Source: a virus
Direction: 5' to 3' (one strand)
Virus record (IMG/VR): IMGVR_UViG_3300031576_000103
Coordinates: 1-44,893 of that record
DNA: 44,893 nucleotides
Part shown: one piece after another, positions 1-44,893 of the stretch
How the letters are laid out: every line of letters begins with the position of its first letter
How positions within the stretch are numbered: the stretch's first letter is position 1
Position numbers and translations under genes: made by a program
The notes under the pieces: generated by a model
Databases searched by the model: none
Told to the model about the DNA's origin: nothing
Seen by the model: the letters and a program-made list of their open reading frames with translations, nothing else

Positions 1-127
1 AGCCGCTGCTCGGTCGTGTTGACTGCCCAGCGACATGTCGCGATCACGAGGTACTGGCCGACGAACGGGAACTTGATCCGGTCACTCGCCGTCTCCACGT
101 AGGAGTCGGTGTCCGCGACCGTCGTCG
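1..127. repeat. Terminal direct repeat, left copy (circular closure)
   Basis: These 127 bases are identical to the last 127 bases of the window. A reading frame runs unbroken through the join, from the tail-fibre gene at the left edge into its 3' part at the right edge. A 127-base overlap equals a k-mer size commonly used by assemblers, so this is most likely the signature of a circular contig rather than a biological terminal repeat. Confidence 0.95.
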
Positions 128-1946: not shown

Positions 1947-3500
1947 CTACCGTGGCCCCTTGTCTATCAGCACCTTGGCCCAGACCTCCTCGATCGCGTA
2001 GCTCTCGCTCTCCGCGCCGACAGGGTTCGCCGAGAACTTCACGGCGATGTTCTTCCCTTCCTGCGAGGCACCGAAGTCGCGGCGCTCCTCATAGAGGCCC
2101 GCGGCGGCCTTCGCCCCGAAGTTCTTCGCCTGGGCGCCGATCTCCGCGCCGTCCACGATCGGGGTGGCGACCAGCGGCTCGGACGTGCCGCCGGTCCACT
2201 GCCGGTAGCGCACGTAGAGCGAGACGAGCGTGGCCTTGCCCGCGGGCGAGGGTAGCCGCCGCGGGGTCCCTTCGGTCGGCCAGAGCTCCCCCGTCGTCGC
2301 GGTGTAGATCGCATCGTCGGAGACATCCGGTTGCGGGTCCCGGTAGCCGGTGCCGGCCACGAATGGCCCGATCTCCTCACGTACCAGGAGCGTGCGCGAC
2401 GCATCGGGATTCAGCATCGTCGCGACCAGATAGCGGTCGTCGAACGAGACGAGATCGTGCGGCGTGTTGAGCGCCGAGTTGACCTTCTCTCGCCGCCACC
2501 GGTCGGCCGCCGGCTCGTAGCACCACACCGTCTGCCCGGATGTCGACAAGGTTACGTAGAGCTTCCCGGCGACGAACGAGGCCGAGACGTAACCGCCCCC
2601 GAGCGCCGGTGCCGGGTCGATCCGGAACTTCTTCGTGATCCGCCGGACGTCGCCGCCATCCCACAGGTAGCAGTTCCCATCGACGCCGACGATGAACACG
2701 CCATCTTCGGTCGGCACGATTGATCGGCCGCGCGCGGCACCGAATCGGGTCTCGAGCGGGCGGACCACGAAGTTCTCGGGCGTGTCGCCAGCCACGTACC
2801 AAAGACCGTGGTTCTTCCCCACGACGAGTACGCGGTCCCACACGGCCAGGTCCTCGATCGGCTCGCCGTCGTCCTGTCCGATGAGTACGAAGTCGTTCGC
2901 GAGGTCCCACGTGTCCGCGTCCCCCGGCGCGGAGTAGCGCAGATGCGTCGGGGTCGTGGGGTTGCCACCGACCCAGAACTGGCTCAGGTGGTACACGATC
3001 GCGCGGCCGGCGATGTTCGAGACCGCGATCGCGGCCGCCGTCGTGCCGTCGTACTTCCGGAGCTGTTGGGATGGATAGCCCGGCTGCGTCGAAACCAGCC
3101 GTCCCGCGCCCACGGCGAAACGCACCGGATCCTCACGGAACCCGGCGGTGATGGCGATCGCTGCATCGAACGTCGTGATCGTCGTGTAGGCGGTCGGGTC
3201 CGCGATGTTCGTTTTCGTCAGGTCGTAGGTGGTGAGTGCTGTCGGTGTCGTGGCCATCACGAGCTTGCGGATCCCCGCCTCGAACCAGCTCGGCTCGATC
3301 CCCCGACCGCGCCGGTTCGTCGGGTGGGCCGGTGTGGCACCGGCGTTCTTCCAGGCCGGTCGCGGCGTGAGACCCACGCCGGCCCATTCCAGGTTGTCGA
3401 GCACCTGCAGCTCGCCCGGGTCCAGCAGCGAAGGGGAGTCGTAGGTGTTGATCCCCCGCTCGAAAGTGATCGGGATCCAGCGCTCCTCGACGACGGCCAT
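1947..3500 (-). CDS. Beta-propeller-like tail nozzle / stabilisation protein
   Basis: A 517-residue protein with ATG at 3500. The N-terminus ERGINTYDSPSLLDPGELQ and repeated beta-strand blocks (for example YHLSQFWVGG, AVWDRVLVVGKNHGLWYV, VPTEDGVFIVGVDG, FDDRYLVATM) suggest the propeller or nozzle proteins that close podovirus tails (P22 gp10 / T7 gp12-like class). It lies between the T7 gp11-like adaptor gene and the tail fibre gene, the usual place for a nozzle. The stop TAG is immediately followed by the fibre ATG, so the two are probably translated together. The assignment is by architecture and context, not by a diagnostic motif. Confidence 0.65.
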   Translation of the reverse strand: MAVVEERWIPITFERGINTYDSPSLLDPGELQVLDNLEWAGVGLTPRPAWKNAGATPAHPTNRRGRGIEPSWFEAGIRKLVMATTPTALTTYDLTKTNIADPTAYTTITTFDAAIAITAGFREDPVRFAVGAGRLVSTQPGYPSQQLRKYDGTTAAAIAVSNIAGRAIVYHLSQFWVGGNPTTPTHLRYSAPGDADTWDLANDFVLIGQDDGEPIEDLAVWDRVLVVGKNHGLWYVAGDTPENFVVRPLETRFGAARGRSIVPTEDGVFIVGVDGNCYLWDGGDVRRITKKFRIDPAPALGGGYVSASFVAGKLYVTLSTSGQTVWCYEPAADRWRREKVNSALNTPHDLVSFDDRYLVATMLNPDASRTLLVREEIGPFVAGTGYRDPQPDVSDDAIYTATTGELWPTEGTPRRLPSPAGKATLVSLYVRYRQWTGGTSEPLVATPIVDGAEIGAQAKNFGAKAAAGLYEERRDFGASQEGKNIAVKFSANPVGAESESYAIEEVWAKVLIDKGPR

Positions 3501-13823: not shown

Positions 13824-14102
13824 TCAGGAGTCCGGTTCCTCGGCGGGGTCCGGGAACTTCTCGGGCTCACCGACCGCGGACTCTGCTAGGTCGGGTGGCC
13901 GCTCGACCTCGACCTGGTCACCCTGCGCACCAGCAAGCACGTCCGCCGTGTGGTACGTCCCGCCGAAGTGCGCGTAGCTCACTGCGCCCACGATGTCCGC
14001 GTCGTCGAGGATCCCCTTCACGAAGTCGACGGCCCTCGCGAGGATCCCCGCTTCCTCGACAGGATCGTGCAGATGTCCGGTGACGTTGAGCGTCCAGGTC
14101 AT
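13824..14102 (-). CDS. Small phage protein, unknown
   Basis: 92 residues, ATG overlapping the end of the upstream gene by 4 bases. The N-terminus MTWTLNVTGHLHDPVEEA, then ILARAVDFVKGILDDADIVG, looks like a small alpha/beta domain. The C-terminal 30 residues are acidic and Pro-rich, probably disordered. Similar short proteins beginning with TLNVTGH occur in phages beside portal genes as far as I recall, but no function is known. Confidence 0.5.
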   Translation of the reverse strand: MTWTLNVTGHLHDPVEEAGILARAVDFVKGILDDADIVGAVSYAHFGGTYHTADVLAGAQGDQVEVERPPDLAESAVGEPEKFPDPAEEPDS

Positions 14103-14488
14103 ACGTCGCCACCCTCGGGCGCGGGTTCGTCGGGCAGCGGAGCCTCCGCTTCGGCGATCGCCTCCACCAGCTCAGCCTTGTTCATCCCCGACCGTCCCTC
14201 GATCTCCAGCTCGGCCGCTCGAGCCTGGAGTTCCTTCACGGTGCGATCCTCGAGCTCCTCCGCCTCGGACTCGGCGGCCGAGGGTGCCGTCAGCGTTATC
14301 ACGAGGTCGTCGCCTCTTGCCGGCACCTTCACATGCCCTTCGATCGGCTCGCCGGTGTCCCGATCCTTGATGAGCTCTTCGGGGTTCTCTACGAGCTCAA
14401 TCCCGCCGACCTCCCACCCGTCCCCGATGTGGGACTCAATCATGGTGCTGCCGTCCGGATTCAAGATCCGGAGGAACCGCTCAGCCAT
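14099..14488 (-). CDS. Protein with Rho-N/SAP-like C-terminal domain
   Basis: 129 residues. After an N-terminal beta segment (AERFLRILNPDGSTM), residues about 80-115 read TVKELQARAAELEIEGRSG followed by MNKAELVEAIAEAEA, which matches the helix-extended-loop-helix of the Rho termination factor N-terminal / SAP-like fold. Such domains bind nucleic acid and are common at the ends of phage head proteins. The tail is acidic with Pro. It overlaps the next gene by 4 bases. Function within the head module is unknown. Confidence 0.6.
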   Translation of the reverse strand: MAERFLRILNPDGSTMIESHIGDGWEVGGIELVENPEELIKDRDTGEPIEGHVKVPARGDDLVITLTAPSAAESEAEELEDRTVKELQARAAELEIEGRSGMNKAELVEAIAEAEAPLPDEPAPEGGDV

Positions 14489-15100: not shown

Positions 15101-16957
15101 CTACACGCCGGTCGGCGTGTTCTGCCTGGTGGCCTTCGGCCGTGCGCCGATCGCCTCATCCGTGTGGTGATGGCGCGCGAGCTGGACCGCGATCGCGAGC
15201 GAGATCACCCGGTCGTCGTGGGCGCCTTCCTGGGCTGCGGGCCGGCCCGCGTCGTCGCGGACGAACGTGAGGAGCTCGCCCACCGAGAGCGCGTGGCGGA
15301 TCCCGAGCTCGTCGCCTCGGACCACCGCGCCGAGCTCATCGAGCATCGGCATCCGCGTGTCGCCGTCGGTGATCCACCCGAGCTTCGTGGTGATCTGCTG
15401 CGTGCGCTCGTTCATCCGCCGGTGCGAGTACAGGTTCGGGTGCCCGTAGTTCTCGCGGAGGATGCGGAGCGTCGTCTGGCCGGATGAGTGGTTCCGCTCG
15501 ACCCCGGTGAGTGCCCACTCGCGCACGGCCTTGCGAGCCGTCGGACACGACCAGTACAGCGCCGCGCCGGCGATCTGCTCCGCGAATACCTCCGGCGCCA
15601 TCCGCTCATGGATGTGGGCCACCTGACGCAGGCATGGCACCCGCTGAGGCTTCCCGTGGAGCTCCACGAGCTCGGAGACCTTCAGCACGTCCGCGCTCGA
15701 GAAGTCGCGACCACCACGCTCGGATGACGCCTCGGTGAGCGAGGGGTCGTGCTTGGCTGACGCCTTGCCCTCGGCCGTGTCCGCTGCCACGACGTAGTGA
15801 CCGGCGGGGTCAGGCTCCTCCCACACGGACACGTAGCCCCGGACCGCGGGGCGGAGCCCGAACCCACCGCCGGCCTTCACGAAGTTCGCGCGATAGATCG
15901 GCGGGGTGGTCCTGGTCGCCTCCTCGTAGCGGACCAGCGCCTCCTCGTCGAAGAACGCGTTCCCGGAGACCAGGAACGCCTCGCGCGCGAAAGCAGGGAA
16001 CTCTTGGCGGTAGAGCCTCGAGTCGCCGGCGAAGTCGTTGGCGATCTTCCAGCGCCGCCATGCGATCTGCTCTGGGGTGAGCCGCCAGACCTCGCCTTCC
16101 CAGGGGATCCCGACGTCAAGGGCGGCGCGCTCCCACGGGTCCTCGGTGGCGGCGACCGCAGCTCGCTCGGAGTCCAACAGCTCGAGCGAGTACTCCTCGT
16201 GGATCCACCACGGCAGGAAGATCGCGAGCCACTCGGACTCGCCGGCCTCGGCCGCCTGCCACATGTTCCAGAACTCGTCGCCGACACCGTGAGCGGTCGA
16301 CTCCAAGTACACCTCGCCGGCGCCGTGAGGCACGGCCTGCAGCGCTCCGGTGAGCACCTCGAGCTGGTGGTCCCACCACGCGACCTCCGAACCGTGGACG
16401 TACTGGCGAGTCAGGCCTCGGCCCGGATCCTTGCCGCCTGCTGTGGTGATCGCGATCTGGGCATCGAGGCCACCGCCGGCCTTGCGGTCGAACAGCAGCT
16501 CGGTGCCTCGCCTAGAGGCCCGCTCGACCGGCCGCAGCTCTTCGGGCAGGTTGTCCCGGAAGCGCTCGTAGATCCGCGCGATCGCCTCGGCGCGGGAGTC
16601 GGAGTCGGCCAGGATCAGCGCGTTGCGGCCGAACCAGAGCGTGCAGCCTCGGAAGATCCGCGACCCGACCCAGGTCGAGATGCCCTCCTGGCGCGCCTTG
16701 AGGATGAGCGCCCGGACGTAGCCGAGTTCCGACCGTTGCCGGCCGATCTTCGAGGCCACGATCTGCTGCGCCCGGTTGAACTCGAACGGGATCAGCTCGC
16801 CGGCCTTCGTCTGGATGCGGAGCGCCACCCGTGCGTACCCGGCGTGGTTAGCCCGGAAACCGTGTATCGCTTCGGACGGGTCAGTCCTCTGCGACGTCCC
16901 CTCGAGCGTCGAGCTCACGAAGGCGCTCCTCCAGCGATCCACCGACCGCGAGCTCAT
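15101..16957 (-). CDS. terL: Terminase large subunit (ATPase and nuclease)
   Basis: 618 residues. The N-terminal ATPase has an adenine-binding region before it and the deviant Walker A KARQEGIST near residue 88, seen in many TerL proteins. The strand QYVHGSEVAWW has the Walker B layout. The C-terminal RNase H-like nuclease begins VVAADTAEG near residue 385 and ends with HDDRVISLAIA near residue 585, giving the acidic residues of the active site. The annotated start overlaps the small subunit by 77 bases; a GTG 13 codons downstream would shorten this overlap. It powers DNA packaging through the portal and cuts the concatemer. Confidence 0.92.
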   Translation of the reverse strand: MSSRSVDRWRSAFVSSTLEGTSQRTDPSEAIHGFRANHAGYARVALRIQTKAGELIPFEFNRAQQIVASKIGRQRSELGYVRALILKARQEGISTWVGSRIFRGCTLWFGRNALILADSDSRAEAIARIYERFRDNLPEELRPVERASRRGTELLFDRKAGGGLDAQIAITTAGGKDPGRGLTRQYVHGSEVAWWDHQLEVLTGALQAVPHGAGEVYLESTAHGVGDEFWNMWQAAEAGESEWLAIFLPWWIHEEYSLELLDSERAAVAATEDPWERAALDVGIPWEGEVWRLTPEQIAWRRWKIANDFAGDSRLYRQEFPAFAREAFLVSGNAFFDEEALVRYEEATRTTPPIYRANFVKAGGGFGLRPAVRGYVSVWEEPDPAGHYVVAADTAEGKASAKHDPSLTEASSERGGRDFSSADVLKVSELVELHGKPQRVPCLRQVAHIHERMAPEVFAEQIAGAALYWSCPTARKAVREWALTGVERNHSSGQTTLRILRENYGHPNLYSHRRMNERTQQITTKLGWITDGDTRMPMLDELGAVVRGDELGIRHALSVGELLTFVRDDAGRPAAQEGAHDDRVISLAIAVQLARHHHTDEAIGARPKATRQNTPTGV

Positions 16958-17333
16958 GCTGCTCGGCGAACTCCGGGATCCGCTTCAGGATCTTGTCGGC
17001 GGTCTGAACGGCGAGCGAGTTATCCGCCAGCGACACGATCTCGTAGTCGCCCTCACCCGTCGACACGACCTGCTCCCGGTGGGTCGAGCTCACCCCGCGG
17101 TCGAGCGCCTCGATGGCCTTCTCCGAGAGCTGCCGAAGATCCTGCACGGTCTTTCCGACCACAGCGTCGAGCACCTGTTTGCGCAGGGCCTGGTACTCGG
17201 GGTCGGAGGTCGCCCAGTCGTACAGAACCCGCCGAGGGATCCCCAGCGCTTTCGCGACGTTGATCTGCAACATGCCAGCGGCGAGCATAGCGGCAGCCTT
17301 CAGTTTCATCTCGGGTGGATGGCGTCTGCTCAC
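16881..17333 (-). CDS. terS: Terminase small subunit
   Basis: 150 residues with a GTG start overlapping the stop of the upstream zinc-ribbon gene (GTGA). An N-terminal helix-turn-helix is visible in EMKLKAAAMLAAGMLQINVA followed by KALGIPRRVLYDWATSD, typical of small terminase DNA-recognition domains. A helical middle (VQDLRQLSEKAIEALDRGV) suits ring oligomerisation. It is immediately upstream of the large subunit. It recognises the packaging site and feeds DNA to TerL. Confidence 0.8.
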   Translation of the reverse strand: MSRRHPPEMKLKAAAMLAAGMLQINVAKALGIPRRVLYDWATSDPEYQALRKQVLDAVVGKTVQDLRQLSEKAIEALDRGVSSTHREQVVSTGEGDYEIVSLADNSLAVQTADKILKRIPEFAEQHELAVGGSLEERLRELDARGDVAED

Positions 17334-17863: not shown

Positions 17864-18097
17864 CTACGAAACCTCGAGCGGGACGGGGCGGCCCTGGATC
17901 GTCTCGCGTGGGATCTTCGTGATCGCTCGGTACCCATCGCCGTCGGGCAGCCGCTCCGACGCGATCACCAGGAACCGCTCGTTCGACTCGGGAAGGATCC
18001 ACCCGACCGAGACCGCGATGTAGTCGGCCCGGACCTCCGTCTGCTCGAGGTCGAAGTGGGCATCGCGCCAGCGGACCATCACGAGCTGGGGATCCAC
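17864..18097 (-). CDS. Small conserved-looking phage protein (VRWRDAHF type)
   Basis: 77 residues, GTG at 18097 with GGAGG 6 bases upstream. It reads MDPQLVMVRWRDAHFDLEQT ... VGWILPESNERFLVIASER ... AITKIPRETI. Short phage proteins with the order VxWxDAH, GW, IPxxxI are frequent in actinophage and marine phage genomes and lack a known function. It is the first gene after the repeat-rich gene-free stretch, so its promoter may lie there. Confidence 0.6.
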   Translation of the reverse strand: MDPQLVMVRWRDAHFDLEQTEVRADYIAVSVGWILPESNERFLVIASERLPDGDGYRAITKIPRETIQGRPVPLEVS

Positions 18098-18197
18098 GGG
18101 CGCCTCCGGGTGAAGCGACGAGCCCCCGAGGGGCCGGTGTCTCGAGGACTCGTTCTTTCCTACATCCTCAACGTATCACACCTCTGCAGCGCAACGG

Positions 18198-18251
18198 CTC
18201 TGGAGACGAAGCGCAGGTCAGGAGGGGTGCGAATCCGGAGACCCTCCAGAG
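18198..18251. other. Long-range stem with nested pairings
   Basis: CTCTGGAG (18198-18205) pairs with CTCCAGAG (18244-18251). Inside, CGCA can pair with TGCG and GGTC with GACC, though not all at once. It may form a structured RNA or cruciform. I see no complete tRNA here. Confidence 0.3.
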
Positions 18252-18318
18252 GCTGTCAAGCACCCTTCAGGATCTTTCTCGTTCTCGAGGCACCACTGCA
18301 GTTTCTTCTCACCGTTGA

Positions 18319-18341
18319 GTAGTACTGACCTTTAGTACTAC
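18319..18341. promoter_or_regulatory. 8-bp inverted repeat, candidate operator
   Basis: GTAGTACT (18319-18326) and AGTACTAC (18334-18341) are exact inverted copies around the 7-base spacer GACCTTT. The local AT content is higher than the surroundings. It has the geometry of a dimeric repressor site. Confidence 0.5.
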
Positions 18342-18359
18342 AGAGATCAGGGAATCCAG

Positions 18360-18412
18360 ACGGACACGTCACGGACACGACACGGACTCCGTCGACTGTC
18401 CGTGACGGACAG
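18360..18412. repeat. Half-site run plus 17-bp palindrome 1
   Basis: ACGGAC occurs at 18360, 18371 and 18382, exactly 11 bp apart. A perfect palindrome CTGTCCGTGACGGACAG follows at 18396-18412 (8-bp arms around a central G). One helical turn per half-site suggests cooperative binding on one DNA face. Confidence 0.75.
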
Positions 18413-18475
18413 CAGTTTCAGAAGAAGGCCGATTCTCAGGACGCAACAGCCTCTTACCTGCGCGTTCCCGTCTAT

Positions 18476-18511
18476 GTCCGTGTTCTGTCCGTTCGTCGTC
18501 CGTGACGGACG
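18476..18511. repeat. Half-site run plus palindrome 2
   Basis: GTCCGT occurs at 18476, 18487 and 18498, again exactly 11 bp apart and in the opposite orientation to the first run. The last unit is part of the palindrome CGTCCGTGACGGACG (18497-18511). Confidence 0.75.
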
Positions 18512-18575
18512 GCCGAAAAAGTGGAGGGGTAGCTCTCGAGAGAGCGGAGAGGTCATCACTCCCTCGAGACTCCGT

Positions 18576-18590
18576 TGTCCGTGACGGACA
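18576..18590. repeat. Palindrome 3
   Basis: TGTCCGTGACGGACA, the third perfect copy of the GTCCGTGACGGAC core, isolated at the gene-side end of the array. Confidence 0.75.
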
Positions 18591-18610
18591 GTGAGACGCC
18601 GTCCTACGCC

Positions 18611-23136: not shown

Positions 23137-23215
23137 GTGGAAAGTCTGACGGGTGGGAACCCTACCCGTCAATACCTCTCTTGACGGGAGTCACTCGGGG
23201 CTGTAGATTCCCCAT
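23137..23215. promoter_or_regulatory. Divergent promoter and operator region between repressor and early genes
   Basis: Three half-sites alternate in orientation: TGACGGGT (23147), ACCCGTCA (23164) and TTGACGGG (23181). Paired, they give inverted repeats with 8-bp arms: TGACGGGT/ACCCGTCA and CCCGTCAA/TTGACGGG. Rightward: TTGACG (23181-23186), 17 bases, TAGATT (23204-23209), with transcription predicted near 23216, the GTG of the next gene. Leftward: TTGACG (23172-23167), 18 bases, CAGACT (23148-23143), predicted start at the repressor ATG. Confidence 0.7.
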
Positions 23216-25745: not shown

Positions 25746-25780
25746 CGCCCGCGGAGGGACCAGGAAGGAACTCACGATGA
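25742..25780 (+). CDS. Possible 12-residue coupling mini-ORF
   Basis: ATG at 25742 overlaps the nuclease stop (ATGA), and the frame ends in a TGA overlapping the next gene's ATG at 25777. It encodes MTPAEGPGRNSR. It could bridge ribosome transfer between the two genes, but the downstream gene has its own AGGAAGGA site, so the mini-ORF may be incidental. Confidence 0.25.
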   Translation: MTPAEGPGRNSR

Positions 25781-26868
25781 GCCCACCGATCGAGGATCTG
25801 CATGAGGACCGCGACATCCGCACGTCGGCGCTGTTGTTCGGTCACATCCGGCTCGGGGTGTTCGACACCAAGCGCGGAGCGCCACGGCAGACGGAGACCT
25901 TCGTTTTCACCTCGCCTGATCGACAGCGCCTCGAGCCGATCGCCCGTGACTTCGGGGGCGAACTCGAGCGCTACGAGCCCCAGGGGGGAGGGGAGGAACC
26001 GTGGCGGGTCGTTTCCGAGACGGACGCCTTCACGGCGTTGTTCCCGGGCCCGTGGGCCGACGAGAACGTCGCGCAGTCCTGGGAGCTCTGGGCTCGGTCT
26101 GGCCCGTCGCGGTTCTGCACCGGCAAGACGTGTGAGCTCATCTCCTACGACGAGGAGACGGGCGAGCGGCTGGTCGATTCCGTCGAGTGCATCTGCCGGC
26201 GCCAGGGCACGCGCGAGTGCAAGGCGGAGACCCACATCCGCCTACTGCTGCCCCAGACGGGCCTCGGGATCTGGGAGCTCACGACCGGCTCGAAGATCGG
26301 CGCGATCGAGCTCTACGACCAGGCGCGGTTCATCGACCAGATCACGAACGGCATGATGAACCGGGTCCCGATCCGCGTGATCTACCGGCCGCGCGAGATC
26401 CACTACTTCGACGCTAAGAAGCGCGAGCGCCACTCGACCACCAAGCGGATCGTCTCGCTCTCGGTGGCCGGCGACGCGGCCCATGCGCTTGCCGCGCTCG
26501 CAGTCACAGAGGAACGAGGACTCGTGGAGGTGGTGCGCGCTGCGCTCGCCGACACGAACGGCGGGGCCCCCGCGCTGACCGCAGGAGGGGATGCGGCTGC
26601 GGGAGGGGGCGCGGGAGCTCCGCCACCATCGTCGGAGCCGGAGGCTGTCGAGGAGCCGGCGGAAGCTCCTCCCCGATCCACTGAGGAAGGGACAGGGCCC
26701 GGCTCCGACGCTCCCGCCTCGCGCGAGCTCTGGGCCAAGGCGGCCGACAAGGGCCTGAAGGGCTCCGCCGTCCTGAAGAAGGTTCGGGAGCTCGAGCTCG
26801 GTCAGCCGCGATCGATCTCGGCCATCACCGATTCACAGCTCCGCGCCGTGATGGAGACGGCGTCGTGA
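25777..26868 (+). CDS. phiC31 gp3-like recombination directionality family protein
   Basis: 363 residues, ATG after AGGAAGGA. The pattern FGHIRLGVFDTKRGAPRQTE, then FVFTSPDRQRLEPIARDFGG, then WRVVSETDAFTALFPGP, is the N-terminal signature of the family that includes the phiC31 excision factor gp3. A cysteine cluster (FCTGKTCELIS ... CICRRQGTRECKAETH) gives a predicted metal site, then LGIWELTTGSKIGAIELYDQ. The C-terminal 100 residues are Pro/Ala-rich with a last helical domain. Many phages with this gene lack a serine integrase, so here it is more likely a recombination or ssDNA-handling factor partnering the Cas4-like nuclease. Confidence 0.7.
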   Translation: MSPPIEDLHEDRDIRTSALLFGHIRLGVFDTKRGAPRQTETFVFTSPDRQRLEPIARDFGGELERYEPQGGGEEPWRVVSETDAFTALFPGPWADENVAQSWELWARSGPSRFCTGKTCELISYDEETGERLVDSVECICRRQGTRECKAETHIRLLLPQTGLGIWELTTGSKIGAIELYDQARFIDQITNGMMNRVPIRVIYRPREIHYFDAKKRERHSTTKRIVSLSVAGDAAHALAALAVTEERGLVEVVRAALADTNGGAPALTAGGDAAAGGGAGAPPPSSEPEAVEEPAEAPPRSTEEGTGPGSDAPASRELWAKAADKGLKGSAVLKKVRELELGQPRSISAITDSQLRAVMETAS

Positions 26869-27023: not shown

Positions 27024-27734
27024 GTGACACGGACCTACGCCAAGATCGACGTCAACCTGCCCTGGCATCCGAAGTTCGTCGACCTCCCGCCACCGACGTG
27101 CTGGACGTTCGTGGCGATGATCTTGTACTCCAAGCGATTCATCTCCGACGGCCGCGTGCCGACCTCGGTCGCCCACGGGTTCTCCGGGCCGAAAGCGGTC
27201 GAGCAGCTCGTCGATCGCGGCGTCGTGTTCCCGGATGCCGGCGACTACGTGATCCGCGACTGGCACGAGTGGAACGTGCCGCGCGCCGAGATCGAGCGCC
27301 GGCGCCAACACGACGCCGAGCGCAAGCGGTCCGAGCGTGGGTCCGAGACGGACGATGATCGGACAGCGCGATCATCTTCGCGTCGTGTCCCTGTATCTCT
27401 GTCCTCTGTTCTCTCAACGGATGGGGGGTCCGGGGGGAAGGATCCGGGGTTCGACAGAGTGTGGGAAGCGTTCCCGGCCCACTACAGCGTCGTACGGGCC
27501 TACCAGGCTTGGTCCGAGATCGGCGATGAGGTCGACCACGCCGCGATCCTCGCCGGTGCCGAGCGCTATCGAGACGATCCCAACCGCACCGCCGCCTTCA
27601 CGAAGCACCTCGCGACCTGGCTCTACGACCACGGCTGGAAAGACCCGCCCCTGCCGAACCGGTTGAACGGCAAGGTCCCGAGGCGCAAGGGCGATCGCGC
27701 CGCCAAGGCGCTGAAGAAGGCGGGCCGCTCGTGA
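27024..27734 (+). CDS. Replication initiation protein
   Basis: 236 residues, GTG start. The N-terminal winged-helix-like domain reads YAKIDVNLPWHPKFVDLPPP ... VAHGFSGPKAVEQLVDRGVV then YVIRDWHEWN, the pattern of phage replisome organisers. A basic and Ser-rich linker follows, then a DnaT/O-like C-terminal domain: FDRVWEAFPAHYSVVRAYQA, then KHLATWLYDHGWKDPPLPNR. It ends in a Lys/Arg-rich tail. It most likely recognises the origin and recruits the host helicase. Its origin is not evident inside the gene. Confidence 0.75.
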   Translation: MTRTYAKIDVNLPWHPKFVDLPPPTCWTFVAMILYSKRFISDGRVPTSVAHGFSGPKAVEQLVDRGVVFPDAGDYVIRDWHEWNVPRAEIERRRQHDAERKRSERGSETDDDRTARSSSRRVPVSLSSVLSTDGGSGGKDPGFDRVWEAFPAHYSVVRAYQAWSEIGDEVDHAAILAGAERYRDDPNRTAAFTKHLATWLYDHGWKDPPLPNRLNGKVPRRKGDRAAKALKKAGRS

Positions 27735-29253: not shown

Positions 29254-29558
29254 CGCAGAAGGCCAGTTCCGCGACAGAGGTTCCGGCACACGAGAACTGC
29301 TCGCGCTGTGGTCGGCCCTACGCTGAGCACGCCCACTCAGGGGCGGAATACATCGAGCGCTCGAACGCCGTGGCGCGATTCGCGGCTCACGCTTTCCGCC
29401 GGCAGCCGGCCAGTCGGTTCTACCCGGAAGGATTGCCCCACCTGGGTAGGCGCGAGGACAAGTGGTCCGGTGCGCGCTGGTGGCCAGACGGTCGGTGGGA
29501 TGGGAGCAGCCTCGTGACGCAGAACATCCCTTCCGCGACAGGCGGTGCCCGTGCATGA
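29250..29558 (+). CDS. Small CxxC protein carrying two start-associated dyads
   Basis: 102 residues, ATG overlapping the resolvase stop. MTQKASSATEVPAHENCSRC, then GRPYAEHAHS gives a CxxC...H knuckle, then helices (YIERSNAVARFAAHAFRRQ) and a Trp-rich segment (DKWSGARWWPDGRWDGSS). The last 15 residues (VTQNIPSATGG...) repeat the N-terminal MTQKASSAT pattern, because a second copy of the DNA dyad lies here at 29516-29539. The gene may once have ended earlier and been fused to a leader of the methyltransferase. Function unknown. Confidence 0.55.
   Translation: MTQKASSATEVPAHENCSRCGRPYAEHAHSGAEYIERSNAVARFAAHAFRRQPASRFYPEGLPHLGRREDKWSGARWWPDGRWDGSSLVTQNIPSATGGARA
29252..29275 (+). repeat. Start-associated dyad 1
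   Basis: Arms GACGCAGAA and TTCCGCGAC around the 6-base loop GGCCAG. The first arm starts within the ATG of the 102-residue gene. Seven of nine arm positions can pair. One of five copies between 29.25 and 30.84 kb. Confidence 0.8.
29516..29539 (+). repeat. Start-associated dyad 2
   Basis: Same arms (GACGCAGAA, TTCCGCGAC), loop CATCCC. It begins in a GTG at 29514 that opens a 14-codon frame ending with a TGA overlapping the methyltransferase ATG. Confidence 0.8.
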
Positions 29559-30583
29559 GCACCTTCGGCTCCCTGTTCAGCGGGATCGGTGGCCTCGACC
29601 TTGGCCTCGAGCGGGCGGGCTGGGAGTGCCGCTGGCAGGTGGAACTCGATGAGTGGTGCCGAGCAGTGCTCGCTCGACATTGGCCCGGAGTCCCGAGATG
29701 GGACGACGCGACGACGTTTCCTCCCGACGCCGAACACGGGGGGAATGGATGGGGGAAGCAACAGTCGGCGAGCGTGGGTGAAGCGTGGCGGGTGGACCTC
29801 ATCGCCGGAGGATTCCCCTGTCAACCCGTCTCCCTCGCCGGCAAGCGCCGAGCACAAGCCGACGACCGATGGCTCTGGTCAGAGTTCGCCCGTATCGTTC
29901 GCGTTCTACGACCCCGATACGTCCTCGTGGAGAACGTTCCAGGGCTCCTTGCTGGACACGGAGGCATGGGGGACGTCCTTGGGGACCTGGCCGCGTGCGG
30001 GTATGACGCGGAGTGGGATTGCATACCGGCTGCGGCCGTCGGTGCCCCTCACCTCCGTTACCGAGTCTTCGTGGTTGCCCACTCCGACGAGGCAGAGCTA
30101 CGGCTACAACCAGCAGGACTCACCGGGAGCAGCGGTGCGACCGAGCTTGCAGACGATGGCCGCGAGGGGCATGTGGCCGACACCGAACGTGCCGGGCCGG
30201 ACCCTCAAGGGCGCACAGGACCGGAGGCGCGACGGGGGTCCGTCTTTGGCCCAAGTCCAGCTCAACTCGGGAGCGACCAGTGGCTCGTTGAACCCGACGT
30301 GGGTCGAGTGGCTCATGGGGTTCCCCGCCGGGTGGACCGACTTAGGGGACTCGGCAACGCCGTCGTCCCGCAGGTCGCGGAGTGGATCGGAAGACGCCTG
30401 ATGGAAGGCCGTGTGACGCAGAACTGGCCTTCCACGTCAGCCACGTGCGCCATCGAGGGCTGCGAGCAGGACTCGTTCGTCGGCGTCGGTGATCCGGCCA
30501 GGTGGGTGTGCTTTGAGCACTACGAGGCGTACCTGGCCCGAGCCCGTGAGGTCATGGACGCGCTGCGGGAGGCCACCTCGTGA
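29555..30583 (+). CDS. C5-cytosine DNA methyltransferase with C-terminal Zn-like extension
   Basis: 342 residues. All main motifs are present: FGSLFSGIGGLDLGLERAG (I), Cys89 in GGFPCQPVS (IV), ENVPGLL at 126-132 (VI), RYRVFVVAH near 169-176 (VIII) and LRGLGNAVVPQVAEWIGRR (X). The frame then continues without a stop through MEGRVTQNWPST into CAIEGCEQDSF and WVCFEHYEAYL, a C..C..C..H zinc-like module that looks like a separate small gene (possible starts ATG 30401 or GTG 30413). From about 29880 its third-position GC drops, because another frame is apparently coding there. It likely protects phage DNA from restriction. Confidence 0.85.
   Translation: MSTFGSLFSGIGGLDLGLERAGWECRWQVELDEWCRAVLARHWPGVPRWDDATTFPPDAEHGGNGWGKQQSASVGEAWRVDLIAGGFPCQPVSLAGKRRAQADDRWLWSEFARIVRVLRPRYVLVENVPGLLAGHGGMGDVLGDLAACGYDAEWDCIPAAAVGAPHLRYRVFVVAHSDEAELRLQPAGLTGSSGATELADDGREGHVADTERAGPDPQGRTGPEARRGSVFGPSPAQLGSDQWLVEPDVGRVAHGVPRRVDRLRGLGNAVVPQVAEWIGRRLMEGRVTQNWPSTSATCAIEGCEQDSFVGVGDPARWVCFEHYEAYLARAREVMDALREATS
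29589..30401 (+). CDS. Overlapping +1-frame gene inside the C5 methyltransferase
   Basis: A 270-codon open frame wholly inside the methyltransferase gene. It has FLPTPNTGG, then AEHKPTTDGSGQSSPVSFAF, then YDPDTSSWRTFQ, LGTWPRAGMTRSGIAYRL, LPTPTRQS, MWPTPNVPGRT and NPTWVEWLMGFPAGWTDL. I recognise these phrases from stand-alone Trp-Pro-Thr-Pro-rich phage proteins near methyltransferases, but cannot verify here. Between about 29882 and 30215 its third positions are G/C in 92 of 110 codons counted by hand, against 72 of 110 in the methyltransferase frame. The start is uncertain (ATG 29589 or 29649). Its TGA overlaps an ATG (TGATG). Function unknown. Confidence 0.45.
   Translation: MASTLASSGRAGSAAGRWNSMSGAEQCSLDIGPESRDGTTRRRFLPTPNTGGMDGGSNSRRAWVKRGGWTSSPEDSPVNPSPSPASAEHKPTTDGSGQSSPVSFAFYDPDTSSWRTFQGSLLDTEAWGTSLGTWPRAGMTRSGIAYRLRPSVPLTSVTESSWLPTPTRQSYGYNQQDSPGAAVRPSLQTMAARGMWPTPNVPGRTLKGAQDRRRDGGPSLAQVQLNSGATSGSLNPTWVEWLMGFPAGWTDLGDSATPSSRRSRSGSEDA
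30415..30438 (+). repeat. Start-associated dyad 3
   Basis: GACGCAGAA, loop CTGGCC, TTCCACGTC. It begins in GTG 30413, in frame with the methyltransferase and with the Zn-like extension that follows. The change to GTC restores one pair lost by the A at position 5. Confidence 0.8.
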
Positions 30584-30816
30584 CGCAGAACCGGAGTTCC
30601 ACGACCGAGGAGTGGGCCGTGTGGTGGCACCGCACGGACGACCGTGGCATGGACATCCCCGAATGCGTCGACCGTCTCACGGAGGCTGAGGCCCGCAGCC
30701 TCTACAGCGAGTGCCTGGATCGGCCGGAGCTCCACTTCATCCGCCTCATGCAGCGGTGGATCGAGCACTCGAGGTGGGAGGAGATGGCCTCCCGGCCAGT
30801 AGGGGGTCCGTTGTGA
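30580..30816 (+). CDS. Small protein behind a start-associated dyad
   Basis: 78 residues, GTG at 30580 overlapping the upstream TGA. It begins MTQNRSSTTEEWAVWWHRTD, then GMDIPECVDRLTEAEARSLY and ELHFIRLMQRWIEHSRWEEM. Helical and Trp-rich with no known motif. The first 8 codons belong to the repeated dyad. The stop overlaps the GTG of the MT-A70 gene. Role unknown; the position between two methyltransferases suggests an accessory to DNA modification or host interaction. Confidence 0.5.
   Translation: MTQNRSSTTEEWAVWWHRTDDRGMDIPECVDRLTEAEARSLYSECLDRPELHFIRLMQRWIEHSRWEEMASRPVGGPL
30582..30605 (+). repeat. Start-associated dyad 4
   Basis: GACGCAGAA, loop CCGGAG, TTCCACGAC, beginning in GTG 30580 of the 78-residue gene. 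Confidence 0.8.
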
Positions 30817-31421
30817 CGCAGAACCCGCGTTCCGCGCCTCGGTACCGGACGATCGTCGCGGACCCACCGTGGCGCTACGAGAACGACCGGGGGACTCAGA
30901 CCCGGAGCATCCGGAGCCGCAAGAGCACGACCGTTGCGGGGCACTACCCGGTCATGGACAACGCCGAGATCGCGGCGCTTCCGCTGGGAGAGCTGGCGGA
31001 CGCCGAGTGCGCGTTGTACCTGTGGGTGACGAACCCCCGCATCTTCGGTCACGTCAACCGTCGACGGGATCCCATCTCTCCTATCGACATGGTGGAGCGC
31101 TGGGGGTTCCGCTACGTCACGTTGCTCACCTGGGTGAAAACGGGGCCGCCTGGGATGGGCTTCGCGTTTCGCGGGCACACGGAGCACGCCCTGTATGCCG
31201 TGAAGGGCACCCTGTCGATCCCAGCCGCGCGGCGAGAGTCCAACGTGGTCGTGGCTCAGCGACGCGCGCACTCGCAGAAGCCCGATGCGTTCTTCGACCT
31301 GGTCGAGCGGGTCTCTCCGCCTCCGCGACTCGAGTTGTTCGCCCGGCGGCAGCGGCTCGGCTGGGACACGTGGGGCAACGAGGCGCTGGAGCACGTGGAG
31401 TTGGTGATGCCTCAAGTCTGA
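30813..31421 (+). CDS. MT-A70 family adenine DNA methyltransferase
   Basis: 202 residues from GTG at 30813 overlapping the previous stop. The catalytic DPPW lies at residues 17-20 (TIVADPPWRY), followed by NAEIAALPLGELADAECALY then LWVTNPR, WGFRYVTLLTWVKTGPPG and GHTEHALYAVKG. HSQKPDAFFDLVERVSPPP and RLELFARRQRLGWDTWGNE give the typical C-terminal region of MT-A70 enzymes. It would methylate adenine N6 in phage DNA, complementing the C5 enzyme. The N-terminal MTQNPRSAP comes from the start-associated dyad. Confidence 0.88.
   Translation: MTQNPRSAPRYRTIVADPPWRYENDRGTQTRSIRSRKSTTVAGHYPVMDNAEIAALPLGELADAECALYLWVTNPRIFGHVNRRRDPISPIDMVERWGFRYVTLLTWVKTGPPGMGFAFRGHTEHALYAVKGTLSIPAARRESNVVVAQRRAHSQKPDAFFDLVERVSPPPRLELFARRQRLGWDTWGNEALEHVELVMPQV
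30815..30838 (+). repeat. Start-associated dyad 5
   Basis: GACGCAGAA, loop CCCGCG, TTCCGCGCC, beginning in GTG 30813 of the MT-A70 gene. Arms are constant in all five copies while every loop differs. Confidence 0.8.
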
Positions 31422-31915: not shown

Positions 31916-32280
31916 CTGCCTTGCCTCGATGCGGGCATGAGCATCCTGTTTTCGGGTGCGGCGGTTGCATCGACCGCCTAGTGGGCCTGGGCCGGGAGAC
32001 GCCGGAACAGAACGCGGCGCGCAGGGCCGCTCGCTCCAAGCGGGACCGCGAGCGGACGTCAAACCAGCACGCGCTACTCGCCAAGGGGATCCACCCGGCG
32101 ACGTATCGGCCTCTCGCGAACAACGGAGAGACGTGTGGATCGTGCGGGTGGTTCGGGGTTGGGCACCGCGATCGCTACTTCAAGTGCACGCACCCGCTGG
32201 GCCCCGGCGTGACGAATGGCTCGGCGACCGACATCCGGAAGCGCTGGCCGGCGTGCGAGATGTGGAAGGTGGCGTCGTGA
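31912..32280 (+). CDS. Zinc-binding phage protein (CGSCGWF type)
   Basis: 122 residues, GTG overlapping the previous TGA. A first cluster CGHEHPVFGCGGC is followed by a basic helix (AARRAARSKRDRERTSNQHA) and a second cluster, TCGSCGWFGVGHRDRYFKCT then SATDIRKRWPACEMW. The second part is a common early phage domain (C..C...(Y/F)xKC...TDxRxWWPAC). Several zinc knuckles suggest nucleic-acid binding. It is coupled to the HerA-like ATPase gene by GTGA. Confidence 0.6.
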   Translation: MTALPRCGHEHPVFGCGGCIDRLVGLGRETPEQNAARRAARSKRDRERTSNQHALLAKGIHPATYRPLANNGETCGSCGWFGVGHRDRYFKCTHPLGPGVTNGSATDIRKRWPACEMWKVAS

Positions 32281-34121
32281 CGGGCCTCAAGCTCGCTCCC
32301 GGCCTCACACTCCCCGTCGACGCCGTCACGCAGACCTTCGGGATCCTCGCCAAACGAGGAGCAGGAAAATCCAACGCGGCGGCCGTCATGGCCGAGGAGA
32401 TGCACGCGGCAGGACTGCAGTTCGTGGTGGTGGATCCGGTTGGGGCGTGGTGGGGGCTCCGCTCATCGGCGGATGGGTCCGGACCCGGACTCGGGATCCC
32501 GGTGCTGGGCGGCTACCACGGCGACGTTCCGCTCGAGCCGACGCCCAGCGCCGGCGAACTCGTGGCCGATCTGGTGGTCGACGAGCGCCTGTCGTGCGTG
32601 CTCGACGTGTCGTCGTTCGACTCCGAGACGAAGAAGCGGACGTTCCTCGCGTCGTTCGCCGAGCGGCTGTTCCGCCAGAAGGGTCGACCAGGTCGCGAGG
32701 AGCCGCTGCACCTGTTCCTGGAGGAGACCGACGATTACGCGCCGCAGCGCGCGACCGGCGAGGTCGCCCGGTGCCTGGGCGCGTTCCAGCGGATCGTGAA
32801 GCGGGGGAGGGCTCGAGGGGTCGGATCGACGATGATCTCGCAACGCTCGGCCGCGCTCAACAAGGATCTGTTGACGCAGATCGACACGCTCATCGCGCTC
32901 CGAACGACCGGCCCGCTCGACCGCAAAGCGATCGAGGGATGGGTCACCTACCACGACACCGACGACGCGATCATCTCGTCGCTCTCGGAGCTGCGCGCCG
33001 GGGAGGCTTGGGTTTGGTCGCCTGAGTTCCTCGACCTCGTGAAGCGTGTTCAGATCCGCCGGCGCCGCACGTTCGACTCGGGTGCGACCCCGAAAGCTGG
33101 CACCACTCGCCGAGCACCGAAGGGCCTGGCCGACGTCGACGTGAGCGCACTCGAGGCGCGGATGGCCGAAACGATCGAGCGGGCGAAGGCGGAGGATCCT
33201 GGGGAGCTCCGCCGCCGGATCCGCGAGCTCGAGCTCAGTCTCCGGAAGGAACGAGCCGCTCGAGACATCATGGCCGTGGCCGTACCGCCCGAGCCAGAGA
33301 TCATCGAAGTCCCGCTTGTGCCCACGGAGGACTTGCAGTATCTGAAGAACGCGGCGGGGAACCTGCACGGCTGGATCACCGACGCCTACGGCCTCTACTC
33401 GCAGTTCGAGGAGCTCCGAACGAAGGTAGACGGCGTCCTCGAGGGGCTCCTCGCATTGTGGGAGAGGGGCGTGGGCGAGCGAGCCGAACGGGCTCTGCCC
33501 GCACCTACGCGTGGAGGGGCGGCAACCCCTGCGAAGCGCCAGGAGCAGGCCGCCATGCAACCGCGGCCGAGCCGGGCAACGGAGGACGACGCCGGCCCGG
33601 CGGGTGAACCCGTGCGCCCCTCACTCGACGGACACGTGTCGCCCTCCGAGCAACGGATCCTCGATGCCCTCGGGTGGCTGCAGGCGGCGAACCTCTACCC
33701 GCCGCCCCGTCAGCGCCTCGGATGGGTCGCCGGTTACAAACCATCGGGTGGGCGGTTCAACAACCTGGTCGGCGCGATGAACTCGGCTGGCCTCATCCAC
33801 TACCCGACGCAGGGGTTCATCGCCTTCACCGACGCGGGAGCGGCGTGCGCGGAAGTGCCGAGCAAGCCGCTCACGGTCGAGGACATGCAGAAGCTCGTGC
33901 TGCAGCGTCTCAGCGAGTCGGAGCGCAAGGTGCTGTCACCGCTGCTCGACCGCTATCCGGCGGCTCTGTCGCGCGTCGAGCTGGCGGCGGCGTCGGACTA
34001 CGACCACGAGGGCGGTAGGTTCAACAACCTGGTGGGACGGCTCTCCAGTCTCGGCCTCGTCGAGTACCCGATGAAGGGCGCGGTCCGGGCCGCGCCCGTG
34101 GTGTTCCTCGAGGACCTCTAG
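32277..34121 (+). CDS. HerA-like ATPase with duplicated C-terminal module
   Basis: 614 residues, GTG at 32277. Walker A AKRGAGKSNAAAV near residues 25-38; FVVVDPVGAWWGLRSS follows; Walker B LHLFLEETDDYAP near residue 140; GVGSTMISQRSAALNKDLLT and IDTLIALRT are sensor-like strands. This is the HerA/VirD4-type hexameric DNA translocase family. A coiled-coil middle (PGELRRRIRELELSLRKERA) leads to two related winged-helix-like modules, each ending GGRFNNLVG...(S/A)xGLIxYPxxG. It may drive DNA processing with the nuclease/resolvase set. No NurA partner is visible. Confidence 0.75.
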   Translation: MTGLKLAPGLTLPVDAVTQTFGILAKRGAGKSNAAAVMAEEMHAAGLQFVVVDPVGAWWGLRSSADGSGPGLGIPVLGGYHGDVPLEPTPSAGELVADLVVDERLSCVLDVSSFDSETKKRTFLASFAERLFRQKGRPGREEPLHLFLEETDDYAPQRATGEVARCLGAFQRIVKRGRARGVGSTMISQRSAALNKDLLTQIDTLIALRTTGPLDRKAIEGWVTYHDTDDAIISSLSELRAGEAWVWSPEFLDLVKRVQIRRRRTFDSGATPKAGTTRRAPKGLADVDVSALEARMAETIERAKAEDPGELRRRIRELELSLRKERAARDIMAVAVPPEPEIIEVPLVPTEDLQYLKNAAGNLHGWITDAYGLYSQFEELRTKVDGVLEGLLALWERGVGERAERALPAPTRGGAATPAKRQEQAAMQPRPSRATEDDAGPAGEPVRPSLDGHVSPSEQRILDALGWLQAANLYPPPRQRLGWVAGYKPSGGRFNNLVGAMNSAGLIHYPTQGFIAFTDAGAACAEVPSKPLTVEDMQKLVLQRLSESERKVLSPLLDRYPAALSRVELAAASDYDHEGGRFNNLVGRLSSLGLVEYPMKGAVRAAPVVFLEDL

Positions 34122-36082: not shown

Positions 36083-36707
36083 GTGGTATCCGTGCCTTCA
36101 CGACCGCTGCTGGACCGGATTGAGGAGAAACTCGATCTCTCCGATCCGTCGGGGTGCTGGATGTGGACCGGGGCCAGGAACAGCCACGGCTACGGCAACG
36201 TCTGCATCGATCACGCCGAGCGCCGGTACGGGCAGGCCCATCGGGCGCTCTACGAGCTGATCGTCGAGCCGGTGCCGGCGGAGCTCGAGCTCGACCAATC
36301 TGTGCCGGACTTCGCTGTGCGTGAACCCTGACCATCTGGAGCCGGTCACTGGTCGAGAGAACAAACTTCGGAGCACCGGCCCCTCAGCGATCCATGCTGC
36401 CAAGACCCACTGCCCGAAGGGCCATCCCTACGACGAGGCGAACACCTACCGCTATCGAGGCATGAGAATGTGCCTCGTCTGCCGTCGTACGACGAGCAAG
36501 GCCGAATGGGCAACAAGGCGCGCCGAGCGAGAGTCCGCCGGTGAGGCTGTGCCGGTCGCCGAGAAGCTACGAACGCACTGCCCTCGAGGGCACCCGTACG
36601 ACGCCGAGAACACGTACGTGTACCGAGGCAAGCGCCAATGCGTGACGTGCCGTCGTGAACGATCGCGCTCTAGACCGAGATCCCGTACCGCCGCAGCGCC
36701 TCGGTGA
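36083..36707 (+). pseudogene. HNH endonuclease split by one inserted base
   Basis: Opposite-strand insertion in the late arm. The first frame (GTG 36083 or 36092) reads LLDRIEEKLDLSDPSGCWMW then ARNSHGYGNV and GQAHRALYELIVEPVPAELE, then breaks at the doubled A at 36297-36298. Removing one A joins it to the second frame: LDHLCRTSLCVNPDHLEPVT, the complete HNH active site. Two zinc modules follow, THCPKGHPYDEANTYRYRG ... CLVCRR and THCPRGHPYDAENTYVYRG ... CVTCRR. Homing-type HNH enzymes are often inserted this way. The frameshift is either real inactivation or a sequencing error. A TAGCGT -10-like box lies 7 bases before GTG 36092. Confidence 0.75.
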
Positions 36708-39700
36708 GCGCTCGTTCCTGCTCTGCCTGCTGGCGCTCCTGGAAGCTCGCCAGGTCATAGTCGACCGTCGGATAGCCAGCGAACCGCGCGAGCTGGTCCG
36801 CCGCCGAGGTCGGGAACAGCGGGGCCCCGGTCTCGTCGGGGATCGCCGTGAACGGCGCGGTGTCGTAGCTCGCTCCGCCGGCGAGGAGATCCCCCAGCAG
36901 CCCTATCTGCGGGACGTTCTGAGCGAGCACGCCGAGGGGTCCTGGACGCGGCGCACCCGTAGGCGCGACGTCGATCACGTTCCCCTGGTCATCCAACACG
37001 GGGCGGAAGTACTGGTCCGAACCGTAGGGCTTGAATCCCTGCTCGGTCGGGGCGGAGAACTCGTCGCCGGTGAACAGCTCGCGTCCGAGGAGCTGCTCGA
37101 GGACCGTCCGCGGCACGGGACCGAGCTGCGAGAGCGGCGGCTGGAACGTGCCTGAGAACGGGTCGGCGCCCCGCGTGGTGAGGAACGAGACCTCTGAGCC
37201 GGGCGGACCGAGCGGTAGGGCTCCGGAGAGCCAGTCCGGGACCGGCCCATACTGCTCCATCATCTCGGCGTGTGCGTTGCCGAGCGCCGCAGCGATCTCG
37301 GCTCGGCCCGGGTACTCGAACGGGAAGCGGAGGAGCAGTTGCATCTGGTGACGCGCGAAAGACCAGAACGGGAACAGGAACCGACGCATCACGTGGCGCT
37401 CGAACGGCGTGAGCGAGCCGTAGTTGCCGTAGAACCGGCGCACCTCGTTCAGCGCCGCCGCGCCGGAAGCCTCGTCGAAGCCCGAGCGCATGATGTCGTC
37501 CATCCGGCGCTTGGCCCCCCAGAAGCTCCGGACGGTCCGACGGAGCGCGTTCTTGCCCTGGAGCTTCTCGGCGGCGGTGAGGTAGCCGACATCGCGGTAG
37601 GCGTCGTCGATCTCGGCCACCAGATGCCGGACGGCCTGGCCCCACGTGCCGAGACGTCGTCCCGCGCGAGAGCCTCGGTAGCGGGTGATCGCGCGACCGG
37701 TCGCGGTCGCACGTGCGGCCATCGGGAGCTCCGGCCGATACTGCTCGGTGAGCTGCGTGAATCCGCTCGCGGGGACGTGCTCTGCTCCGGGGAGCCTGCG
37801 GATCTGTGCCGCGAGCGCACCCTCGCGGAGTTCGCCCCCGCCGATCGCGCCCCCGACCGCTTCCCGGATACCGCCCTTAGACTCGAGCCAGCCCGCGACC
37901 ATCGCGCGGAACCGCTCGCCGAGCACGCGCATCACGTCGGCAGTCTTGGCCCCCTGCATCGCGGCGAACACTGTATTCCCGAGGATGTTGTTGATTGCCC
38001 ACCGAGGGGAGCCCGAGAGGACGAGACCACGCCAGGCGTTCATGGCCGTGTCGTGGAACAGGGAGACGTTCTTCCCGCCGAGCACCTTCGCGTAGTCGGA
38101 GGCCTTCTCGAGCTGGCGGGCGACGACCTCCGGGACCGCCCAGACCTCGGCGCCGCGCCCCATCGCTTTGGCGACGTCATCTTGCGTGCGGAGCATCACC
38201 CTCTCGAGGACCTGGGCCCCCGCCGCGTCGGCGTCCATGCCTGACTCCCGCAGACGCGCCATCTCGTCGAGCAGCTCGAGCCGCTGCCGGTGGTGCAGGA
38301 ACAGCGCATCCGGGGCGATCGCCACGAATCCGGTTGGGACCTCCTCGCCGTTGGGGATCCGGTGACCGGTCTCGCGGACCAAGCGGCTCATGGTCTCGTA
38401 GGTCTCGATCTCGCGTGTGGCGCGAGCCGCGCGGCGCGTGAGTGCCTCGACGGGATCGGTGATGTAGGTCCCCTCGCGGAGCAGCACGCCCTTGAGCTGC
38501 TTCGCGTGCGGGTCGCGCGCGTAGATGTTCGCACCCCGGAGCTGTCGCGAGCGGAAGAAGTCAGAGGGCCGGACCTTGTCGGCGTCCATGTAGGGGAAGT
38601 AGACGGGCTGGGAGAGCCCACCATCCCGGAAAGCATCGTCGAGCTCTGCCACCGACGGTCCGCCCACGAGCTCGGTCCCGTCGAAGCGCGCCCCATGCTT
38701 CATCCGGGCGGCGAAGTAGGCGCGATCCACGATCTGCCGCGGGGTCTTGCCCATCACCCCGAACAGGTCGGCGAACTGCTCGGCGTCGACCAGGCGGAAC
38801 TCGTCCATCCCCTCGATAGCCGCGTCCAGGGCTGGACCTCCCTGGCGCGAGCCGGTGCGGCGACGTAGGCCATCGGCAAGGCCTCGGGCGAGTCTGCGCG
38901 CTCCGTCGATCTCGGCATCGACGTCCCATCCCGTTGATGCGTATTGCTCGCGGTCAGCCTCGAGCTTCGCGATGAACTCGTCGGTGCGGTCGAGAACGCT
39001 TTGGGTGCGCTCGGCGAAGATGGGGTCGGCAGCCTGCGCCGCGGCACGCTCGGCGTCGTCGAGCAGATCGCCGAAGGGTTGAGGGGGTGGAGGTTGCGCG
39101 AGGTCGCGAACCGTGGCTGCTAGGACTTCGGAGCCGGGGGATTCCGGAGCGCCTGGACGATCTCGGGGTGGACCTTCCGCGCCCAGGTCTCGATCTCGGC
39201 GCGCGACATCGACCGCAGGTTCTCCGGCAGCTTCACGAGCACTCCCGAGGAGTTCCCGGTCGCCGGTGCCTCCGACCTCGATCTCTCGCTCATTCGCAAC
39301 GTCCCAGATTGATTGCTGGTCGTTCTCGATGCCGAGTCTACGCGCCTCGCCCTCATCGAGCACGTTCATGGAGACGTCCAGCGCAACTTCTCCACGCTCC
39401 ACGTCGTGCCAGACGCCGAGGTAGTCCGGCCCGGCAAGCTCGGTCTGGTGGCGCTCGGCGTAAGCGATCAGTTCGGCGATGCCTTGCTCGGGGTCGAAGA
39501 AGCCGCCCTCAGGTACGACCGCACCGAAGCGAGCACTTGGGCGGGAGACCATGTACCCCTGGGTTGGCTCCTCGCCGGTCATGATTCGGAGAGACACGCC
39601 GCCCTCGGAGCGCACCCGCTCGAAGATCGTCGGGCGTCGGGGCTTCGGTCGCAGGCGCACGATCCTGGGCGCGACCGATCTCGGGGCCTCAAGGAATCGG

Positions 39701-44528: not shown

Positions 44529-44893
44529 TCAGGCGTCTCCGAGGAAGATCACTGCAAGGTTCCAGTCCGACAAGGTGAGACCGGCCCCGCTGTCCTGCTG
44601 GACACGCAGCCGCAGGAACCCATCGTCGGCATCGACGACGGGGATGTCGATGATCCCGGACATCACCTGGGTCGTCTTGAAATCCGCGATGGCCTCGACG
44701 TTCGAGCGGAGCCCGTCGAGTTCAGCGTCGGTCCAGACGTTCGCGATCAGTGTCTCGGCGAAGAACAGCCGCTGCTCGGTCGTGTTGACTGCCCAGCGAC
44801 ATGTCGCGATCACGAGGTACTGGCCGACGAACGGGAACTTGATCCGGTCACTCGCCGTCTCCACGTAGGAGTCGGTGTCCGCGACCGTCGTCG
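44529..44893 (-). CDS. Tail fibre / tip protein, 3' part
   Basis: The 3' end of the 727-codon gene that starts at 1946. Reading across the circular join, the codons before 44864 are those at 1-127 in the left copy. FPFVGQYLVIATCRW, FFAETLIANVWTDAELDGLR and FLRLRVQQDSGAGLTLSDWN complete a jelly-roll, C1q-like C-terminal domain. The stop TGA lies at 44531-44529. The next gene downstream begins at 44512. The GTG at 44864 that an ORF caller would use is internal to the true gene. Confidence 0.85.
   Translation of the reverse strand, partial: TTVADTDSYVETASDRIKFPFVGQYLVIATCRWAVNTTEQRLFFAETLIANVWTDAELDGLRSNVEAIADFKTTQVMSGIIDIPVVDADDGFLRLRVQQDSGAGLTLSDWNLAVIFLGDA
44767..44893. repeat. Terminal direct repeat, right copy
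   Basis: Identical to bases 1-127. Removing one copy leaves a 44,766-bp circle. It implies circular permutation or a circular form, not a fixed biological end. Confidence 0.95.

Follow-up and report, generated by a model that had tools for sequence, protein, structure and literature searches.

An intergenic array of phased half-sites as a candidate second initiator-binding region in a temperate phage genome

Introduction

The phage SPP1 possesses a replication initiator, gp38 (G38P), which binds direct repeats at two places: oriL, inside the initiator gene, and the intergenic oriR, each with an AT-rich unwinding element beside it (PMC6316719, PMC3485210). The two sites are approximately 12–13 kb apart (PMC6316719, PMC3485210). 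Replication starts at oriL, while the role proposed for initiator bound at oriR is to stall forks and to set off concatemer replication (PMC6316719, PMC3485210). Mycobacteriophages such as Miko encode a RepA-type initiator with a helix-turn-helix, and their origin is presumed to be within the initiator gene or beside it (PMC7157519). Prophages of this type are extrachromosomal and carry parABS, and the authors identified no repeated motif at the origin (PMC7157519).

The origins of temperate actinophage-type genomes such as the one studied here are mostly unmapped in the literature that we searched. The DNA analysed, hereafter the window, is the whole 44,893-nucleotide IMG/VR record IMGVR_UViG_3300031576_000103. 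A preliminary description of it had pointed to phased 11-bp half-sites and three perfect palindromes in a gene-free region, for which a replication origin (iterons), an operator cluster and a partition-type centromere were offered as explanations. In this study, we compared these sites with those of other phages and with a second cluster in the putative initiator gene. The layout in two places resembles that of SPP1, and we therefore propose the intergenic region as a second initiator-binding origin region.

Results

Genome and setting of the gene-free region

Although listed as linear, the record very likely represents a complete genome that is circular and 44,766 bp long, since its ends are identical over 127 bp (window 1–127 and 44767–44893); motif counts in the record are thus genome-wide. 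The genome belongs to a temperate tailed phage. Its minus strand carries the terminase, portal and capsid genes, and the genome also encodes a tyrosine integrase, and CI-like and Cro-like proteins flanking a divergent promoter. The genomes searched yielded no close prophage relative, and a close-relative search of viral contigs confirmed no relative of the initiator.

Several other features were observed. TGACGGG(T) sites, inverted and direct, lie between the CI-like and Cro-like genes (window 23146–23192) and are likely the immunity operator. A Gp3-like recombination directionality factor (PF18897, window 25777–26868), of a family known from serine-integrase phages, is present in this tyrosine-integrase phage. 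Two DNA methyltransferase genes stand side by side (29462–30583 and 30711–31421), and further along are a HerA-like ATPase of 721 aa (31956–34121) and an ORF of 1578 aa without a PHROGs match (36670–41406).

The gene-free region is flanked by minus-strand ORFs, one ending at 18611 and the other starting at 18097. Downstream of it are two small ORFs, the putative small terminase gene, which was assigned by a weak match, and the large terminase gene (Table 1).

Table 1. Features discussed in the text (window coordinates)
Feature	Position	Strand	Remarks
Large terminase gene	15101–16957	-	
Putative small terminase gene	16881–17333	-	weak match, E 0.001; downstream of the array region
Gene-free region with arrays, 513 bp	18098–18610	.	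based on the listed ORFs and codon-position base composition
AT-rich island adjoining array 1	18266–18366	.	candidate DNA-unwinding element
Inverted repeat GTAGTACT-N7-AGTACTAC	18319–18341	.	within the AT-rich island
Array 1: ACGGAC x3 (18360, 18371, 18382; 11-bp steps), then 15-bp palindrome TGTCCGTGACGGACA (18397–18411)	18360–18411	-	
Array 2: GTCCGT x3 (18476, 18487, 18498; 11-bp steps)	18476–18510	+	
Third palindrome TGTCCGTGACGGACA, isolated	18576–18590	.	
Replication-initiation protein gene, 236 aa	27024–27734	+	proposed binder; phrog_2447 E 8e-18, phrog_3926 E 4e-15; actinophage relatives
In-gene cluster GTCCGA-N6-GTCCGA-G-ACGGAC-N5-TCGGAC, initiator-gene linker	27329–27364	+	second composite of the genome

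Sites and geometry of the intergenic array

The positions first reported for the six phased half-sites (Table 1) and for the palindrome GTCCGTGACGGAC (18398, 18498 and 18577) proved exact in every case. Counted genome-wide, as had been suggested, GTCCGTGACGGAC has three copies, all within the gene-free region. Two of the three palindromes reach 15 bp (TGTCCGTGACGGACA) and the remaining one is CGTCCGTGACGGACG; the third GTCCGT of array 2 forms the left half of the GTCCGTGACGGAC at 18498. The pattern GTCCGTNACGGAC is confined to these three places in the whole record, where its reversed control had 0 matches.

Half-site geometry is fixed, with direct steps of 11 bp and inverted pairs of 13 bp with a central G, and positions 18360–18589 hold 11 perfect half-sites, those of array 1 being offset by 11-11-16-7. 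Dinucleotide shuffling of the window (100 shuffles) gave a mean of 0.0 both for perfect palindromes and for triple 11-bp arrays, and of 0.35 for palindromes when up to one mismatch was allowed, and the genome-wide maximum of lag-11 self-similarity was at 18346, in array 1. An Rfam search gave no match. Cooperative binding by one protein, as suggested earlier, is plausible for sites phased in this manner.

A related cluster in the initiator gene

The protein proposed to bind these sites is the putative replication initiator of the phage, for which the AlphaFold2 model had low confidence. Its gene lies approximately 8.8 kb from the intergenic array and contains, at 27329, a four-half-site element that is also present in other members of the initiator family. 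When the half-site is written as WCGGAC, where the letter W was chosen post hoc after the cluster had been seen, this is the sole place outside the intergenic region where four half-sites cluster within 40 bp. None of the other 17 single-base variants yields a four-site cluster, and 20% of shuffled genomes yield at least one for some variant. The in-gene half-sites (GTCCGA) are one base off the intergenic GTCCGT, the in-gene cluster being degenerate and the intergenic set perfect. A weight matrix made from the intergenic half-sites was also tried as a pointer to the initiator gene and did not rank the in-gene cluster first. With the array and the cluster, the genome thus has two putative initiator-binding regions, and a second docking array is the most likely identity of the intergenic one.

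Perfect palindromes are suitable targets for dimeric repressors, and centromeres can have clustered palindromes; the palindromes of this region, being both perfect and clustered, would fit an operator cluster for a CI/Cro-type repressor or a partition centromere. However, a different inverted motif, TGACGGGT...ACCCGTCA, is present in the CI/Cro intergenic region, at the divergent promoter of the repressor, which weakens the operator reading. ParA and ParB were not found among the ORFs scanned, which covered only part of the small ones, and the copy inside the initiator gene points to the initiator instead. We consider an operator or a centromere very improbable. Likewise, nothing points to the plasmid-type replication of the prophage that the preliminary description had raised, and the genome has a tyrosine integrase.

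Arrays with 11-bp steps in other phages

A scan of viral contigs for three copies of ACGGAC at 11-bp steps returned 75 loci, many of them mid-gene in phage replication-initiator genes. We dropped the idea that ACGGAC is a specific initiator hexamer, given that arrays of AGCGAC and GCAAGC also fall in such genes: at the same cut-off, triple 11-bp arrays lay in initiator-like ORFs at 32 of 75 loci for ACGGAC, 42 of 82 for AGCGAC and 30 of 80 for GCAAGC. The initiator profile was built from ten ACGGAC ORFs and hence favours the ACGGAC set, so that the other two figures are cleaner, AGCGAC being a poor control on account of the GAC core that it has in common with ACGGAC. Since the control hexamers also occur in initiator ORFs, what characterises initiator genes of this class is the 11-bp stepping, with a variable hexamer.

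Related initiators were retrieved by tblastn from phages of Gordonia, Arthrobacter and Mycobacterium. A strong 11-bp array was present in the initiator gene of 7 of the 10 relatives first examined, and most relatives have their sites confined to this gene. The in-gene array of Dardanus contains palindromes and consists of TGTCGACGGTCGACA, nine bases, and then GTCGAC at 11-bp steps; its offset series, 7-16-11-11, is that of array 1 on the other strand. Letter identity between these two arrays (25 of 52 positions) is not significant by itself. Perfect GTCnnnNnnnGAC palindromes were found in 3 of 20 initiator genes, against 0.2 expected, and the one in the initiator gene is the sole such palindrome of the genome in both Dardanus and Footloose.

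Second ACGGAC pairs in two other phages appeared unrelated. L022 has two copies of TTTTTGACGGACATTTGACGGACA 233 bp apart (2810–3061), and record G011 has a similar pair.

That the same architecture recurs in the initiator gene of this phage as well as in those of its relatives favours the origin (iteron) among the three explanations first offered, while the operator and the centromere lost ground. We conclude that the intergenic region is probably an origin-type array for the phage's own initiator.

Distribution of the composite element

To compare genomes irrespective of the half-site letters, we defined a composite, GTCnnn-N5/6-GTCnnn-N0/1-nnnGAC, in which nnn is free. Exactly two matches to it are present in the 44,766-bp genome, at 18487 in array 2 without mismatch and at 27329 in the initiator-gene linker with one mismatch, compared with 0.1 in shuffles. 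A version allowing any hexamer and one mismatch had a background of approximately 3.6 per genome, and thus only the GTC-anchored composite is informative. Schmidt has a single GTC-type composite, within its initiator gene, and Bumble has one outside it; Dardanus, Catfish, Andrew and Footloose have 0. Phonegingi has four (0.025 expected without mismatch), of which one is in the initiator gene and three are elsewhere, and the sites of Pickles13 are similar and similarly positioned. The composites outside the initiator gene of these two Microbacterium phages are at 4817, 37092 and 38817 (L307) and at 4965, 37308 and 38723 (L310).

A GTCACG version of the composite lay inside an initiator-family ORF at 48 of 120 loci in viral contigs, where such ORFs make up 3.8% of the bases. 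The binomial tail, 4e-36, serves as no more than a rough guide, given the non-independence of related contigs. When 33 records with the GTCACG composite were searched whole, a second, distant composite was found only in one Appavirus-like record, and extra arrays outside the initiator gene are therefore unusual. The exact GTCCGT composite was found in two other contigs, in neither case in an initiator ORF and in one case just downstream of a primase-like ORF. At such a position, L313 has many TTTTGTCCGT copies plus GTCCGTGACGGAC (13880–14238), which is possibly another origin with the same half-site.

The position of the intergenic region allows two further explanations. It is directly upstream of minus-strand genes that run into the terminase genes, and one extra composite of Phonegingi and Pickles13 lies, if the genome is circularised, approximately 0.5 kb upstream of the small terminase gene; both would suit an initiator-bound regulatory site that times late or packaging transcription with replication, with the in-gene cluster as the sole origin. 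However, no promoter-like site was found on either strand in a scan for the sigma-70 type, and an AT-rich island beside a dense array is an origin-like feature. We judge such a regulatory role unlikely, though it deserves consideration. The second explanation is a packaging site (cos or pac) with repeats bound by the small terminase subunit. Less than 1 kb separates the region from the putative small terminase gene downstream of it, and the phased repeats of the region recall the cos sites of other phages, which contain phased terminase-binding repeats, but a packaging site would leave unexplained both the in-gene cluster and the association of the architecture with initiators in other phages. 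We regard this explanation as improbable.

AT-rich island and inverted repeat

The most AT-rich 60-bp stretch of the genome, at 18302, has 34 A+T, compared with 30 for the best stretch outside the region. It is placed where an unwinding or melting element would be expected and, beside the dense array, is an origin-like candidate for one. No DnaA box was found. A cumulative GC skew, proposed earlier as a check, had its minimum at 21,388, elsewhere than the array; the skew is confounded by gene strand and was uninformative.

The inverted repeat within the island is present as originally claimed. The GTAGTACT arrangement was found in just 8 viral contigs, a number that, roughly estimated, does not exceed chance expectation. 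With inverted arms on either side of a 7-bp spacer, the repeat resembles a tyrosine-recombinase core, and Arthrobacter phage Andrew has an intergenic tRNA-like 3' end approximately 2 kb from its integrase gene, so the repeat may be seen as the core of an attP, with the phased repeats as integrase arm or excisionase sites. However, the Pfam matches of the integrase are limited to core-binding (from residue 37) and catalytic domains, with none to an arm-binding domain, and the 21-bp core of the repeat is absent from the genome collection. Furthermore, the repeats are one-sided, and arm sites would leave the in-gene copy unexplained. We give an attP hardly any credence and retain the origin-type array as the preferred reading.

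Discussion

We infer initiator binding of the sites, as well as origin activity, from the architecture shared with initiator genes. In the mechanism that we propose, the initiator would occupy the half-sites along one face of the helix and, once bound, would bend or wrap the array. The AT-rich stretch at approximately 18.27–18.36 kb would then be opened by the initiator, which would also recruit the helicase. The intergenic region may be the main origin, a late origin or fork barrier, or a regulatory site, and either of the two places may be the active origin.

A broader hypothesis, which we put forward tentatively and consider rather doubtful at present, is that the initiator family has a general origin code, in which an 11/12-bp direct step and a 12/13-bp inverted pair are constant and the half-site letters are phage-specific. 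Some phages (this one and Appaviruses) may carry further arrays near packaging genes, where bound initiator would stop forks and bring about a switch to the concatemer replication that supplies packaging, in line with the proposal made for SPP1 oriR. The composite provides a simple sequence rule for a putative origin, usually in the initiator gene, and exposes exceptions such as the larger array described here. It opens two questions to direct test: in what way half-sites co-vary with the DNA-binding domain of the initiator, and whether a packaging-side array acts as a concatemer trigger outside SPP1.

Like SPP1 with its oriL and oriR, the genome has one array in the initiator gene and a larger intergenic one, here approximately 8.8 kb apart, and a candidate AT-rich unwinding element like those of SPP1 is seen for the intergenic array only. 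Unlike this temperate phage, SPP1 is lytic and has a Bacillus host, and binding has been shown for SPP1, whereas it is inferred here. The likeness to SPP1 is one of layout; the design of the sites, a 13-bp palindrome with 11-bp steps, is likened to that of actinophages only. Unlike Miko-type prophages, the genome has an integrase, and the ORFs scanned contained neither ParA nor ParB. A related initiator is shared with the Gordonia phages Dardanus and Schmidt, Arthrobacter phage Andrew and Microbacterium phage Phonegingi, whose initiator-gene linkers contain sites that combine 11–12-bp direct steps with inverted half-site pairs. Half-site letters vary by phage, and, unlike most of those actinophages, in which the sites are in the gene only, the phage described here has its larger and perfect set in an intergenic region.
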